A DNA stretch of 43,914 nt. Origin: a virus. The notes under the pieces are model-generated. The model was not told the DNA's origin. It saw only the letters and a list, made by a program, of their open reading frames with translations, and searched no databases. The number at the start of each line of letters is the position of its first letter. Within the stretch, counting starts at the first letter, position 1. The position numbers and the translations under genes are program-made. The stretch spans positions 1 through 43,914 of IMG/VR virus record IMGVR_UViG_3300028559_000071; one strand, given 5' to 3'. Positions 1,767 to 33,235 of the stretch are shown in pieces.

Positions 1767-1971
1767 CGGTGATGTTGTATGCAGCGCCTGCCCCAACTGG
1801 GCAATGGAGTGTGAGGCCAGGCGACTTCTAACCTACCCTGCGGCCCAGCGCAGAGAGGCTCTGTCAAAACGGAAAGAGATCCGCAAAGACATTTCTCAAC
1901 TTGAAGCGGTGATGGAATTCCTTGAACAACAAACTAACGCCGGCCGAAAGAAAGCACCTTCACAAAGTTAA
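1705..1971 (+). CDS. Small Cys-containing phage protein with ECEAR motif
   Basis: It encodes 88 residues with cysteines at the N-terminus (CHQVNC) and a VVCSACPNWAMECEARRLL segment followed by a basic helical tail (RREALSKRKEIRK). The ECEAR motif followed by an Arg-rich helix recalls a small widespread phage family (DUF7696-like). I offer this from memory and with low certainty. The start may lie downstream of ATG 1705 because the overlap with the previous gene is long. Confidence 0.55.
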   Translation: MLKPCHQVNCEISTQLVSLASGDVVCSACPNWAMECEARRLLTYPAAQRREALSKRKEIRKDISQLEAVMEFLEQQTNAGRKKAPSQS

Positions 1972-2185
1972 GTCTTTGCCATGCGGGGTGTGTGGCGCGG
2001 CTGGTCCTAGTGACGCTCACCATGTAGAGCAGCATCAGCAGTATCTGTGCATTCCTCTGTGCAAGGATTGCCATCAGGGAAGCCACAACGGCATCCACGG
2101 CGAAAAGCGGATCTGGTCGGTCTACAAAAAAACAGAGCTATCGGTGCTTAACGAAACGATAAGAAAGCTTCTTGCCGGGTTCTGA
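1922..2185 (+). CDS. HNH/Ref-like zinc-binding nuclease
   Basis: It encodes 87 residues from a TTG start (no in-frame ATG exists; GGA lies five bases upstream), overlapping the previous gene by 50 bases. A CxxC pair (CGVCG, residues 21-24) is followed by DAHHVEQ, then IPLCKDCHQ and HNGIHG. This His-His...Cys-x-x-Cys-His arrangement is that of ββα-metal/HNH nucleases, and is close to the small phage Ref-like (recombination enhancement) and DUF968 proteins. The likely role is a DNA nuclease in phage recombination. It is the last gene before the terminator at 2237. Confidence 0.65.
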   Translation: MNNKLTPAERKHLHKVKSLPCGVCGAAGPSDAHHVEQHQQYLCIPLCKDCHQGSHNGIHGEKRIWSVYKKTELSVLNETIRKLLAGF

Positions 2186-2236: not shown

Positions 2237-2265
2237 GCCCCTCTTTGAAACGAGGGGCTTTTTTT
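2237..2265 (+). terminator. Rho-independent terminator of the early operon
   Basis: A seven-base-pair stem, GCCCCTC (2237-2243) with GAGGGGC (2252-2258), closes an 8-nt loop and is followed by seven Ts. It lies 50 bases after the HNH-like gene. Confidence 0.85.
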
Positions 2266-2272
2266 GTACAAT
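2245..2272 (+). promoter_or_regulatory. Promoter nested in the terminator, upstream of the hammerhead
   Basis: A -35-like TTGAAA (2245-2250, in the terminator loop and start of the 3' arm) and a -10-like TACAAT (2267-2272) are separated by 16 bases. Transcription would begin near 2279-2280, directly at the first base of the hammerhead motif. Prediction from hexamers only. Confidence 0.5.
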
Positions 2273-2281
2273 GGTTTTACA

Positions 2282-2327
2282 GTCCTTCTGATGAGCCGTG
2301 AGTCGGCGAAACCTACGGGTAAAGGAC
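2282..2327 (+). ncRNA. Type I hammerhead ribozyme
   Basis: All core elements are present in order. Stem I is GTCCTT (2282-2287) paired perfectly with AAGGAC (2322-2327). The core box CTGATGA is at 2288-2294. Stem II is GCCG (2295-2298) with CGGC (2304-2307) around loop TGAGT. GAA follows at 2308-2310. Stem III is ACC (2311-2313) with GGT (2318-2320), closed by the tetraloop TACG in a C-G context (UNCG class). The residue before the expected cleavage bond is A2321 (a GUA site), so cleavage is expected between 2321 and 2322. The open ends lie in stem I, which makes it type I. Confidence 0.88.
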
Positions 2328-2336
2328 AGCACGACC

Positions 2337-2441
2337 TGCCGGTGTAGTGGTCTGCGTAGCGGGACTGCCGCAAGGGGGAATGGGTGAAGAAATGTGGGAG
2401 CCTGTGCACGGGCGAACCGCAGCCCTAGTACCGAACCGGCA
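2337..2441 (+). ncRNA. Structured RNA domain downstream of the hammerhead
   Basis: A 7-bp long-range helix, TGCCGGT (2337-2343) with ACCGGCA (2435-2441), encloses a second helix CTGCG (2352-2356) with CGCAG (2418-2422) and a small hairpin CCTG-TGCA-CGGG. The segment has no convincing gene of its own and sits between the ribozyme and a strong ribosome-binding site at 2446-2451. It could be a leader controlling the 49-aa gene or part of a stand-alone RNA ending at the terminator near 2580. Confidence 0.45.
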
Positions 2442-2458
2442 ACTTCAAGGAGATAACA

Positions 2459-2608
2459 ATGCAACTGCGTTGCTTGAATGTTTGGGAAGACGCGCCGCAC
2501 GTTCGCGGTGACCGCAAGTTTTGGCTGAACTTTGAGCGCACCATTGGATGGTGGTCGCTAACCATCTGCGGTTTTTGTTTTATCCTGCTTAGATCATCGA
2601 AGGATTAA
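2459..2608 (+). CDS. Small membrane peptide, 49 aa
   Basis: A strong AAGGAG (2446-2451) lies 7 bases before ATG 2459. The 49-residue product has a charged N-terminal half and a hydrophobic C-terminal segment (WWSLTICGFCFILL), so a single membrane span is likely. It follows the hammerhead and folded leader in the same transcript. Oddly, a terminator-like hairpin lies inside its 3' end (2537-2580), and its last 20 bases overlap the convergent metallophosphoesterase gene. No family recognised. Confidence 0.55.
   Translation: MQLRCLNVWEDAPHVRGDRKFWLNFERTIGWWSLTICGFCFILLRSSKD
2537..2580 (+). terminator. Terminator-like hairpin
   Basis: CGCA (2537-2540) and GATGGT (2547-2552) pair with ACCATC (2561-2566) and TGCG (2567-2570), followed by GTTTTTGTTTT. 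It would end the hammerhead-led transcript, but it overlaps the 3' end of the 49-codon frame, so either the frame or the terminator may be leaky or wrong. Confidence 0.5.
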
Positions 2609-3743
2609 CAATCGTCCGGCAATACTCGCCAAAATCGGCGTGGTATGTAATGCATTGCGCGTCTCTTTGGGCTCGATAGCCAGCGTTGTGCGCCCACAGG
2701 TCTGATGGCTGAAGGACGCGGTGGCTTTCAATGCACACGCCCTGGAGATCTTTCATGGTCTTGTGGTGAATGTGCCCTATGTGGGCATACCTATGCCGAG
2801 TGCTTCCCCACATTTCTGGCTTGTCGGCAGCCATCACGCCCTGCAAAGTTTCTGGCTTGACGGTGTCGCCATGAGTAGCGGCCAACATAACTTTCCCAAA
2901 CTGTCGGAAATAAAATTTATTTGCCGACGTTTCAATGTGCACGCGCGGCTCGTTCTCATAAGCAACTTGCAGCCAGAGACTGAGATCGATGGCCGAATAA
3001 TCGTCGTGGTTTCCGATGATGTTCCACACGGTAACCTTGGTGTGCTTTCTTAAAGAAATCCGAATCATCTCTCGCAGTATGCGAAAGCCCACCTTGCGAA
3101 CCTTTTGATAGCGACCATCAACATCTAAGGCATGACCGGATCTCAAAGTTCTGTTTTGCCCGTCATCGGCATGAAAATAGTCACCAAGATTTAGGATGAT
3201 TGCCTCTTCTGCCAGCGGGGAGCGCTCCACCAAATCGTCGTGAGCGCGGATAAATATTGATTCTGCTTTTGCCAGGTCGTGATCTTCGCCTGTCTCTTCG
3301 GCCCAAGCTCTCATGCCGACATGCGGATCCCCGTATATATACATCGAGAGCAGTTTTTGATCGCAAGCCTCCGTGGGCAAATGCGTTGGCGACACCCTGA
3401 CAATCTCATCGCGAAAAGCCTCAAGAAATGCTTGCTTAATCTCTTCGCTGTTCTGCGTATCCTCTCTTGTTTTAACCCATTGTCCTTTAACCGTTCCATC
3501 TTCCGAGTAATAGGTTGAGGTTCCCTTGACCACGTAGCCTGGAGGGGCTGCGTGGGTCATGTCGTGTTCAGGCGAGAGACCTTGGCGGGCAGCTCTGGCT
3601 TGCAGCCGGTAGATCTGGCGATACATGTTTCTGAGGTTCATTCCAAGGGCTGCAGCAGCCTGAGTCTTGTTGCCACCAGCTGCTTCAATTGCATCCAAAA
3701 CTTCATGATCTCTTACGTTGGCAAACTCTCTTAAGTGATCCAC
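2589..3743 (-). CDS. Calcineurin-like metallophosphoesterase with N-terminal HTH
   Basis: It encodes 384 residues from a GTG start at 3743, preceded by a G-rich ribosome-binding stretch. Residues about 10-45 form a Fis-type helix-turn-helix (GGNKTQAAAALGMNLRNMYR). The rest carries the metal-binding motifs of the calcineurin-like phosphoesterase fold in order: GDPHVG (138-143), LGDYFHAD (186-193), GNHDD (244-248), THGDT (290-294) and GHIHH (323-327). Such enzymes hydrolyse phosphodiester or phosphomonoester bonds using two metals; phage members are sometimes annotated as DNA repair or nuclease-like phosphoesterases. The fused HTH suggests action on DNA. The exact substrate is unknown. It is transcribed leftward, away from the RNA region at 4.1 kb. 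Confidence 0.85.
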   Translation of the reverse strand: MDHLREFANVRDHEVLDAIEAAGGNKTQAAAALGMNLRNMYRQIYRLQARAARQGLSPEHDMTHAAPPGYVVKGTSTYYSEDGTVKGQWVKTREDTQNSEEIKQAFLEAFRDEIVRVSPTHLPTEACDQKLLSMYIYGDPHVGMRAWAEETGEDHDLAKAESIFIRAHDDLVERSPLAEEAIILNLGDYFHADDGQNRTLRSGHALDVDGRYQKVRKVGFRILREMIRISLRKHTKVTVWNIIGNHDDYSAIDLSLWLQVAYENEPRVHIETSANKFYFRQFGKVMLAATHGDTVKPETLQGVMAADKPEMWGSTRHRYAHIGHIHHKTMKDLQGVCIESHRVLQPSDLWAHNAGYRAQRDAQCITYHADFGEYCRTIVNPSMI

Positions 3744-30824: not shown

Positions 30825-31465
30825 GCGGCGTATCTCAAGCTGTATTTATGAACCAGAGGTCGTTTGGCCCGCCACCGCCGGGTGCGATTGGTTCTGCGTA
30901 TGAGGGCGGGTATTACGCAGGTCAGATTTCAACCGCTGGCAATGGGGTTGCAGATTTTTATTTAGTTGTTGCCCCAAAATCTTCTGGCGAAAATTCATCT
31001 AAACAATGGAAAACCACAAATACGTCCACAGCGGGAACATCTTCGGTTATTGACGGCCCAACCAATAGCGCTAACATGAACAATGCAAGCCATCCAGCGG
31101 CGCAGTTCTGTAAAGGCTTGACCATTGGCGGCTTTACTGACTGGTACATGCCCGCAAAAAACGAACTTGAAGTGTGTTATTACAACCTAAAACCCACTAC
31201 AGCGGGCAATGACACCGGCGCAGGCGTTAACGCCAACGCTGTGCCCAGAAGGGATAGTAGTTACACTTCGGGAACACCTGCGCAAACTTCGGCGGCGGCG
31301 TTTGTAACTGGTGGTGCAGAAGAGTTTGCGGCTGGCAGTTACTGGTCTAGTACTGAGCCTTCTGCGACGGGCGCATGGAGACAGTTCTTCGGTGGCGGCA
31401 ACCAGAACTACGACAATAAGGACTATTCGACCCGGGTTCGAGCAGTTCGGAGATTGCCCGTTTAA
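30821..31465 (+). CDS. DGR variable protein, C-type-lectin-like (DUF1566/FGE-type)
   Basis: It encodes 214 residues from ATG 30821, which has AGGGAG eight bases upstream and overlaps the fibre stop. Residues about 103-122 (GGFTDWYMPAKNELEVCYYN) are the core of the DUF1566/formylglycine-generating-enzyme-like fold used by DGR variable proteins. YWSSTE (174-179) and the C-terminal RVRAVRR are typical of that fold's ligand-binding end. Residues 169-210 are encoded by the variable repeat, leaving four residues after it. Thirteen of the 42 repeat-encoded residues differ from what the template would encode. The likely role is host receptor binding at the fibre tip, as for Mtd of BPP-1. Confidence 0.92.
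   Translation: MSGVSQAVFMNQRSFGPPPPGAIGSAYEGGYYAGQISTAGNGVADFYLVVAPKSSGENSSKQWKTTNTSTAGTSSVIDGPTNSANMNNASHPAAQFCKGLTIGGFTDWYMPAKNELEVCYYNLKPTTAGNDTGAGVNANAVPRRDSSYTSGTPAQTSAAAFVTGGAEEFAAGSYWSSTEPSATGAWRQFFGGGNQNYDNKDYSTRVRAVRRLPV
31325..31450 (+). repeat. DGR variable repeat (VR)
   Basis: 126 bp, exactly 42 codons, aligning without gaps to the template repeat at 31977-32102. It differs at 20 positions, every one an A in the template: A to G (most), A to C, or A to T. No non-A position differs. The 3' end is a shared G+C-rich block (CCGGGTTCGAGCAGTTCGG), after which the two sequences diverge at once, marking the initiation-of-homing boundary. Confidence 0.97.
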
Positions 31466-31916: not shown

Positions 31917-31976
31917 GCAAGCCAATCTCAGTGTGGAAAAATCTGCATTGCGTTGTGTGAGTGCATGGCCTTTGCG

Positions 31977-32102
31977 TTTGCGGCTGACAATTACTGGTCT
32001 AGTACTGAGAATTCTGCAACGAACGCATGGAAACAGAACTTCAATAACGGCAACCAGAACAACAACAATAAGAACAATTCAAACCGGGTTCGAGCAGTTC
32101 GG
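31977..32102 (+). repeat. DGR template repeat (TR)
   Basis: 126 bp with 46 adenines, of which 20 are substituted in the variable repeat. Read in the variable protein frame it contains 14 Asn codons (AAC/AAT), the classic hypermutable design, clustered towards the 3' half. It lies in the space between avd and the RT gene and ends 14 bases before the RT start codon. No protein gene covers it convincingly. Confidence 0.97.
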
Positions 32103-32116
32103 CGATGGAGCCAAGT

Positions 32117-33235
32117 ATGCAGTGTGATCTGTCAATTTCGGAAGTTTTTCAGGCGTATTACGACTGCCGAAAGGCAAAGCGCAATACATGGAATGCAATT
32201 GAGTTTGAAAGTCAACTTGAGCGCAACCTGATGGACTTGTACTACGAGCTGGTGGCTGGCAATTACCAACCGGGGCGATCCATCATGTTTGTCGTCACCA
32301 GACCTAAGGCGCGTGAAGTTTGGGCTGCAAATTTTAAGGACAGGGTTGTACACCACATTTTGTACAACCGCTACTCGGGCCACTTTTACCGGCGATTTAT
32401 TCATGACAGCTACGCCTGCATCCCTGAAAAGGGCACACTCCGCGCAGCCAATCGTGTGCAACATTTCATTCGGTCGGCCACTCAAAATCACACTCGTCCG
32501 GCGTGGTTCTTAAAGGCTGACGTAGCAAATTTTTTTGTGTCTATTGACAAGTCAATTTTGGACGCCATGCTGGCGCGGCACATCACCGACCCGTGGTGGA
32601 TGGCCTTGACACGGACAATCTTGCACAAAGACCCAAAAGAAAATGTTTACATCAAGAGCGATGCGTCGTTACTTTCTAAAGTACCCGCTCACAAAAGTTT
32701 GCTCAACGCCACAGCTGGTTTTGGTCTGCCGATTGGCAATCTGTCCAGTCAGTTCTTTGCCAACGTCTATCTGGATGCGCTAGATCAGTACGCCAAGAAC
32801 ACGCTAAAGCTGCGGCATTACGCCCGTTATGTCGATGACATCGTGGTGATCGGCGGAAGCGGAACCGATTTGAACGAGGCTTATGAAAAAATGTCGGTTT
32901 TTGCCGAGACACATCTTGCCGTCAAGTTTCACCCTAACAAAAAAGAAATTAATCGGGTTGAGGTGGGAATAAACTTTGTAGGCTATATTATTAAACCTTG
33001 GTGTAAATACATTCGCCGATCCACGATTGCCAATATGTACAAGCGCACTGCACTGCATTCTGAATTTGAGCCTCTGCGTGCAACGGTCAACAGTTATTTT
33101 GGTATGTTACGGCACGCTAACGCTTTTAAAGAACGCAAGCGTGCAGCAACACACCTTGGTAAATCCGGCTGCTGGTTTGATGGCCAGCTTACAAAACTTG
33201 TCAGATTAGGAGCATCACAATGCACATCGTCGTAA
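32117..33235 (+). CDS. DGR reverse transcriptase
   Basis: It encodes 372 residues from ATG 32117, with GGAG six bases upstream; an ATG at 32105, without a good ribosome-binding site, is also in frame. Reverse-transcriptase motifs are clear: KADVANFFVSID (133-144) with the first catalytic Asp, the DGR-type domain-4 motif GLPIGNLSSQ (203-212), the catalytic YVDD (238-241), KFHPNKKEI (270-278) and GINFVGYII (284-292). The LG/IGxxxSQ form is the mark of DGR enzymes as opposed to retron or group II intron RTs. It copies the template RNA while misincorporating opposite adenines. The last 16 bases overlap the next gene. Confidence 0.96.
   Translation: MQCDLSISEVFQAYYDCRKAKRNTWNAIEFESQLERNLMDLYYELVAGNYQPGRSIMFVVTRPKAREVWAANFKDRVVHHILYNRYSGHFYRRFIHDSYACIPEKGTLRAANRVQHFIRSATQNHTRPAWFLKADVANFFVSIDKSILDAMLARHITDPWWMALTRTILHKDPKENVYIKSDASLLSKVPAHKSLLNATAGFGLPIGNLSSQFFANVYLDALDQYAKNTLKLRHYARYVDDIVVIGGSGTDLNEAYEKMSVFAETHLAVKFHPNKKEINRVEVGINFVGYIIKPWCKYIRRSTIANMYKRTALHSEFEPLRATVNSYFGMLRHANAFKERKRAATHLGKSGCWFDGQLTKLVRLGASQCTSS

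Follow-up and report, generated by a model that had tools for sequence, protein, structure and literature searches.

The window, a viral DNA stretch of 43,914 nucleotides (IMG/VR record IMGVR_UViG_3300028559_000071), carries at 2280-2329 (+) the motif of a minimal type I hammerhead ribozyme, and it is highly probable that this is a genuine, selectively maintained ribozyme with a likely role in RNA processing. The RNA letters on this strand are CA-GUCCUU-CUGAUGA-GCCG(UGAGU)CGGC-GAAA-CC(UACG)GG-UA-AAGGAC-AG, and the elements are placed as follows.

2280..2329 (+), minimal type I hammerhead ribozyme (direct reading, fold, model R1, conservation)
G2282-U2287 with A2322-C2327 (+), stem I, six Watson-Crick pairs
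2288-2294 (+), core CUGAUGA, by direct reading
GCCG 2295-2298 with CGGC 2304-2307 (+), stem II, by direct reading
2299-2303 (+), loop II, UGAGU, by direct reading
2308-2311 (+), GAAA, by direct reading
A2311-U2320, C2312-G2319 and C2313-G2318 (+), stem III, by direct reading
2314-2317 (+), stem III loop, UACG, by direct reading
2321..2322 (+), predicted cleavage site, position from the hammerhead consensus

All core invariants (CUGANGA ... GAAA, U16.1 and an H17 that is not G) are present, and three helices surround the core with both the 5' and 3' ends lying within stem I, which is the type I topology. Direct reading assigns U16.1 to U2320, H17 to A2321 and G8 to G2293, and the first two assignments place the predicted cut between A2321 and A2322. 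The three helices were recovered in the minimum-energy RNA fold of 2278-2332, in which the predicted probability of stem I was 0.93. The initial annotation had described a complete type I hammerhead here, with a perfect six-pair stem I, a UACG-capped stem III, a cut between 2321 and 2322 and G2293 as a position for an inactive control. Direct reading and the fold put each named element where it had been placed, the proposed cut agrees with the U2320/A2321 assignment and G2293 is indeed G8.

A strict motif (CUGAUGA, stem I of at least 5 pairs, stem II of at least 4, stem III of at least 2 plus A15.1-U16.1, and UH) gave one match in the window and none in 300 dinucleotide-preserving shuffles searched on both strands. 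The Rfam search recommended in the initial annotation went the other way. No hammerhead family from Rfam was reported at E<=5 in a scan of the whole window, the best score in narrow searches (351 bases) was 16.4 bits for HH9 against a gathering score of 52, and the gathering threshold of RF00163 and clan CL00010 as curated was not reached. This miss is a detection limit of the models rather than a defining feature of the ribozyme. Across other phage contigs, pattern scans of IMG/VR combined with stem checks yielded minimal type I hammerheads, dozens in all; most raw pattern matches in two scans lacked the stems and were rejected as chance. From 40 aligned phage hammerheads, with the window's own family left out, a covariance model (R1) was built. 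R1 scored 47.6 bits at 2280-2329 (E 2.1e-10), and its runner-up place in the window scored 13.7 bits; this match weighs most in favour of the motif being a true hammerhead. In the 40-hammerhead alignment, 99% of helix cells were paired compared to 68% in shuffles, 178 cells were changed on both sides compared to 44.5, and the covariation signal was lost when the partner was shifted by one to three columns. A search for cellular genomes with hammerheads of the window's loop type found none, and similar DNA in known phage genomes was limited to 24-base chance matches.

Relatives of the locus were compared with the window. One record (L066/L097) comes from the window's own phage or a near-identical one. 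In L037, L085 and L088, which represent two sister lineages (L037 and L085 being one), the hammerhead is identical at 50/50 positions, whereas identity is 76-77% in the neighbouring gene, 38-40% in the spacer and 61-63% in the downstream domain described below. No other stretch of the locus is as well conserved as the ribozyme. Gene order around it is also kept in these three relatives and the window. In L107, whose exonuclease is 68% identical, all three stems differ in sequence (I, GCCUCU/AGGGGC; II, GCCC/GGGC; III, ACG/CGU) with pairing intact and several changes on both sides of a pair. L188 has stem I as in the window and a long helix in place of stem III. The helices are therefore kept by compensatory change, both in L107 and L188 relative to the window and in the class-wide covariation. 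The initial annotation had tied its reading to the covariance score and to conservation in relatives: the Rfam score is low, yet the motif is conserved in relatives, and the identity in three relatives, the compensatory changes in two more and the R1 score all support type I. In L098-L100, the exonuclease and a homologue of the window's 49-aa ORF are present and the hammerhead is absent at the homologous place. Two further observations concern individual relatives. A tRNA-Met gene with encoded CCA (L107 4859-4932, minus strand) has its end directly abutting the start of the hammerhead module. Covarying palindromes, TACTTTAACAATGTTAAAGTA and AACTCTAACAATGTTAGAGTT, lie just 5' of the hammerhead in L085 (~3160-3182) and L088 (~1540-1562) and are missing from the window.

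The hammerheads collected from other phages form a class located between genes. In 40 of 45 class hammerheads an upstream ORF has its stop between -60 and +12 relative to the core, and the median distance from the cut to the next ATG is 25.5 nt, counts in which some contigs are related and so not fully independent. Placement between a stop and an ATG some 20-30 nt past the cut is typical of the class and is not what defines it; read plainly, it would mean that polycistronic phage RNA is cut between genes. The window is atypical in placement, with a terminator upstream and the 49-aa ORF starting 137 nt past the cut. In sequence it agrees with the class consensus, having an A on either side of a six-pair stem I and UGAGU in loop II. 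The UNARU form of loop II and the A's bordering stem I are conserved across the class, part of which was chosen by loop sequence. Many class sequences were picked with a pattern that fixes the loop, and most finds of a loop-free pattern show the same UNARU form. Such conservation may reflect a tertiary contact of loop II with the periphery of stem I in the phage hammerheads. Three contigs (L012, L119 and L120) have four to six hammerheads each, with the maximum of six in L012. When these three were scanned, a single hammerhead, in L012, passed the Rfam threshold (35.7 vs 34), suggesting that the class is probably under-annotated. In phage PaP3, too, R1 picks out a hammerhead (32.2 bits), just past an annotated ORF. 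A PaP3 hammerhead is reported to be active in vitro (PMC3088659), and it is presumably the R1 match, as the phage yielded no second one. The initial annotation had noted that hammerheads are known from phages, which the literature bears out (PMC3088659, PMC6155905), and had missed both this intergenic class and the conserved RNA domain downstream of the window's hammerhead.

The features surrounding the hammerhead in the window are these.

1922..2185 (+), small upstream gene, phrog_1588, a conserved neighbour in L037, L085 and L088
2236..2266 (+), intrinsic terminator, directly 5' of the hammerhead
2245..2272 (+), sigma-70-like promoter TTGAAA-16-TACAAT, overlapping the terminator, with a start near 2279
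2333..2439 (+), conserved noncoding domain GACCUKCCGGUGUA...AACCGG, common to phage relatives
CCGGU 2339-2343 with ACCGG 2435-2439 (+), outer helix of the domain, unvarying among relatives
2447..2452 (+), Shine-Dalgarno AAGGAG
2459..2608 (+), 49-aa ORF with one probable membrane segment

The phrog_1588 gene has a weak, below-cut-off resemblance to DUF968. L088 has an equivalent hairpin plus U-run in the place of the terminator. The promoter-like site shows 10 of 12 consensus matches, where 0.5 such sites are expected by chance in the 801 bases scanned, and it was not found in L088; as a consensus match only, it is weak evidence for a promoter. The 49-aa ORF gave no match in Pfam or PHROGs, and in L098 and L099/L100 its homologues have a start codon at that same place. 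Antisense ORFs spanning the locus were set aside, the spacer being just ~40% identical and gapped. Betaproteobacteria-1 RNA (RF02932), searched by covariance match, is absent from the window. It is present in L088 at 1716-2026, directly past the hammerhead module and a good sigma-70 promoter, and also in L037 at 1-80 (past the module), in the L085 record and in L098-L100. Separately, 2189-2266 of the window may encode a small RNA of ~65 nt, from a TATAAT box to the terminator. Its hairpin loop has an anti-Shine-Dalgarno-like AUCUCCU that complements AGGAGAU ahead of the 49-aa ORF, and the region weakly matches the RF02278 toxic sRNA (20.8 bits). Elsewhere, the window has a diversity-generating retroelement, made up of two 131-nt copies at 31324-31454 and 31976-32106 (84% alike, presumably the variable and template repeats) and an adjacent reverse transcriptase at 32105-33235. 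The window also has genes for terminase, portal and head; the earlier label 'podovirus' was not confirmed.

Downstream of the cut, the domain of ~100 nt recurs in L037, L085, L088, L187, L188 and L190, and a more distant version in L107. Both ends of the domain hardly vary (5' GACCUKCCGGUGUA, 3' AACCGG). The outer helix has no covariation support because it never varies, and the inner helices are tentative, their covariation support being partial and slight. No Rfam family matched the domain in whole-window or narrow searches, and we regard it as a candidate new RNA family. L187 and L190 carry the domain without any hammerhead, so cleavage is not essential to the domain. What follows it also differs: the window has a Shine-Dalgarno and the 49-aa ORF, L088 has a sigma-70 promoter and RF02932, and L187 and L190 have yet another gene. 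The domain is thus tied to no single downstream gene. Three other ideas about the domain were rejected. A likeness between the domain in L088 and the specificity domain of RNase P was dropped as there was no Rfam RNase P match even at E<=10. L191, a Nevskia contig put forward as the domain's cellular copy, proved to be a chance match in repetitive sequence without the inner motifs. A post-cleavage cap, pairing AAGG of the new 5' end with CCUU of the domain, was discarded since L187 and L190 keep CCUU without AAGG and the window's own domain reads CCUG.

In the mechanism we propose, a rightward transcript would fold the hammerhead once position 2327 has been made and would cut itself at A2321/A2322. 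The upstream RNA, begun at the terminator-overlapping promoter or by read-through from upstream genes, would be released bearing a terminal 2',3'-cyclic phosphate, and the downstream RNA would begin with a 5'-OH at A2322, followed by the compact conserved domain. In the window this 3' product would run on as the leader of the 49-aa ORF, and in sister phages the domain precedes another noncoding RNA gene, RF02932. With a terminator upstream and the domain between the cut and the ORF, the best explanation is that cleavage sets a 5'-OH end ahead of the domain and separates it from the upstream RNA. The likely use would be RNA processing, giving a structured RNA a defined 5' end uncoupled from upstream transcription. 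We infer activity in the cell, these end groups and a stabilising or uncoupling role of the hammerhead. The hammerhead of haloviruses HF1/HF2 is located 13 nt ahead of a helicase start, and a mapped RNA 5' end falls within 3 nt of its cut (PMC3088659); RNA cutting between genes in vivo is supported because this transcript end maps so close to the cut. In tests by others, 4 of 18 consensus-matching hammerheads were inactive (PMC3088659). The mean probability of stem I in longer transcripts of the window was 0.49 (2279-2470), 0.01 (2279-2620) and 0.00 (2201-2345). Stem I thus competes with other pairings in long transcripts, and activity would depend on fast co-transcriptional folding. An upstream hairpin, GUCCU...AGGAC at 2201-2218, duplicates the stem I sequences (2282-2327); the predicted fold of the 2201-2345 transcript contains no ribozyme, and the hairpin is absent from L085 and L088.

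Other readings of the locus were weighed. The hammerhead could be the 5' trimmer of a stand-alone, possibly trans-acting RNA (CCGGUGUA...ACCGG), the 49-aa ORF being incidental. The conservation of the domain across phages although the gene behind it changes, and its nearly invariant ends, are what such an RNA would lead one to expect, but a terminator or fixed 3' end is absent past the domain, the inner helices have little covariation support and two relatives have the domain without the hammerhead; we hold this reading to be possible and somewhat doubtful. If, instead, the domain were a cis-regulatory leader, cleavage and refolding would gate the translation or stability of the 49-aa ORF, in the manner of a ligand- or condition-gated hammerhead. 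Its position in the window, with the cut on one side and a good Shine-Dalgarno on the other, would suit this, as would the dependence of stem I folding on transcript length. Such a leader is nevertheless unlikely, since the downstream gene is not conserved along with the element and no conserved switching structure was seen.

Two readings would deny the hammerhead a function. It could, together with the domain, be a recently transferred mobile piece whose presence reflects spread. Its absence from the homologous place in L098-L100 and its position beside a tRNA in L107 are in keeping with this, but neither ends nor repeats nor a mobility gene came to light, L037, L085, L088 and the window share one neighbour order, and the stems are under constraint, which makes recent transfer quite improbable. 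Finally, the motif could be a decayed or chance hammerhead-like sequence that is inactive, as its sub-threshold Rfam scores and a stem III of just three pairs (A15.1-U16.1 included) might imply. Against this stand the E value of 2e-10 with the independent R1 model, the 0/300 shuffles and the perfect conservation and compensatory change in relatives, and we give decay or chance very little credence. Our preferred reading remains a genuine, maintained hammerhead that probably processes RNA. We would extend it only speculatively, and with more doubt than belief, to the combined proposal that the hammerhead matures an undescribed phage noncoding RNA, which bears a 5'-OH and acts on host or phage RNA, and that such ribozymes are general, largely unannotated cutters of intergenic transcripts.

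The window's hammerhead is of a kind already known; what is new is the domain downstream of it, along with the probably under-annotated class in phages. It shares with type I hammerheads of RF00163 the catalytic core, the three helices, the open stem I and the UH cleavage site, and differs in having a six-pair stem I without the usual distal internal loop and a three-pair stem III. Its best Rfam resemblances, in narrow searches, are HH9 (RF02275) and the RAGATH-1 hammerhead (RF03152, 15.2 bits); both fall far under their gathering scores and differ in peripheral structure. Like the PaP3 hammerhead it is found by R1, and the PaP3 copy sits between early genes, right past an ORF stop; PaP3 differs in its longer stem II loop and stem III and in having no CCGGUGUA domain downstream. 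The HHphage of HF1/HF2 (PMC3088659), with an RNA 5' end mapped near the cut, is likewise a phage hammerhead just before a gene. It is, however, a core variant from a saltern virus, whereas the core in the window is canonical. A search of the open-access literature, subscription papers and preprints lying outside it, found no description of the minimal class at stop-start junctions or of the downstream domain.

Hammerheads are established in phages and bacteria (PMC3088659, PMC6155905) and are persistently linked with phage genomes (PMC6155905), and an enrichment near Mu-like phage genes is cited in PMC10085705. For bacteria and phages alike, their role is an open question (PMC6155905). To this question the locus brings an example that is both clean and conserved, and its related phages add a testable pattern, in which cuts fall at stop codons, the next start lies ~25 nt past the cut and several hammerheads occur per genome.
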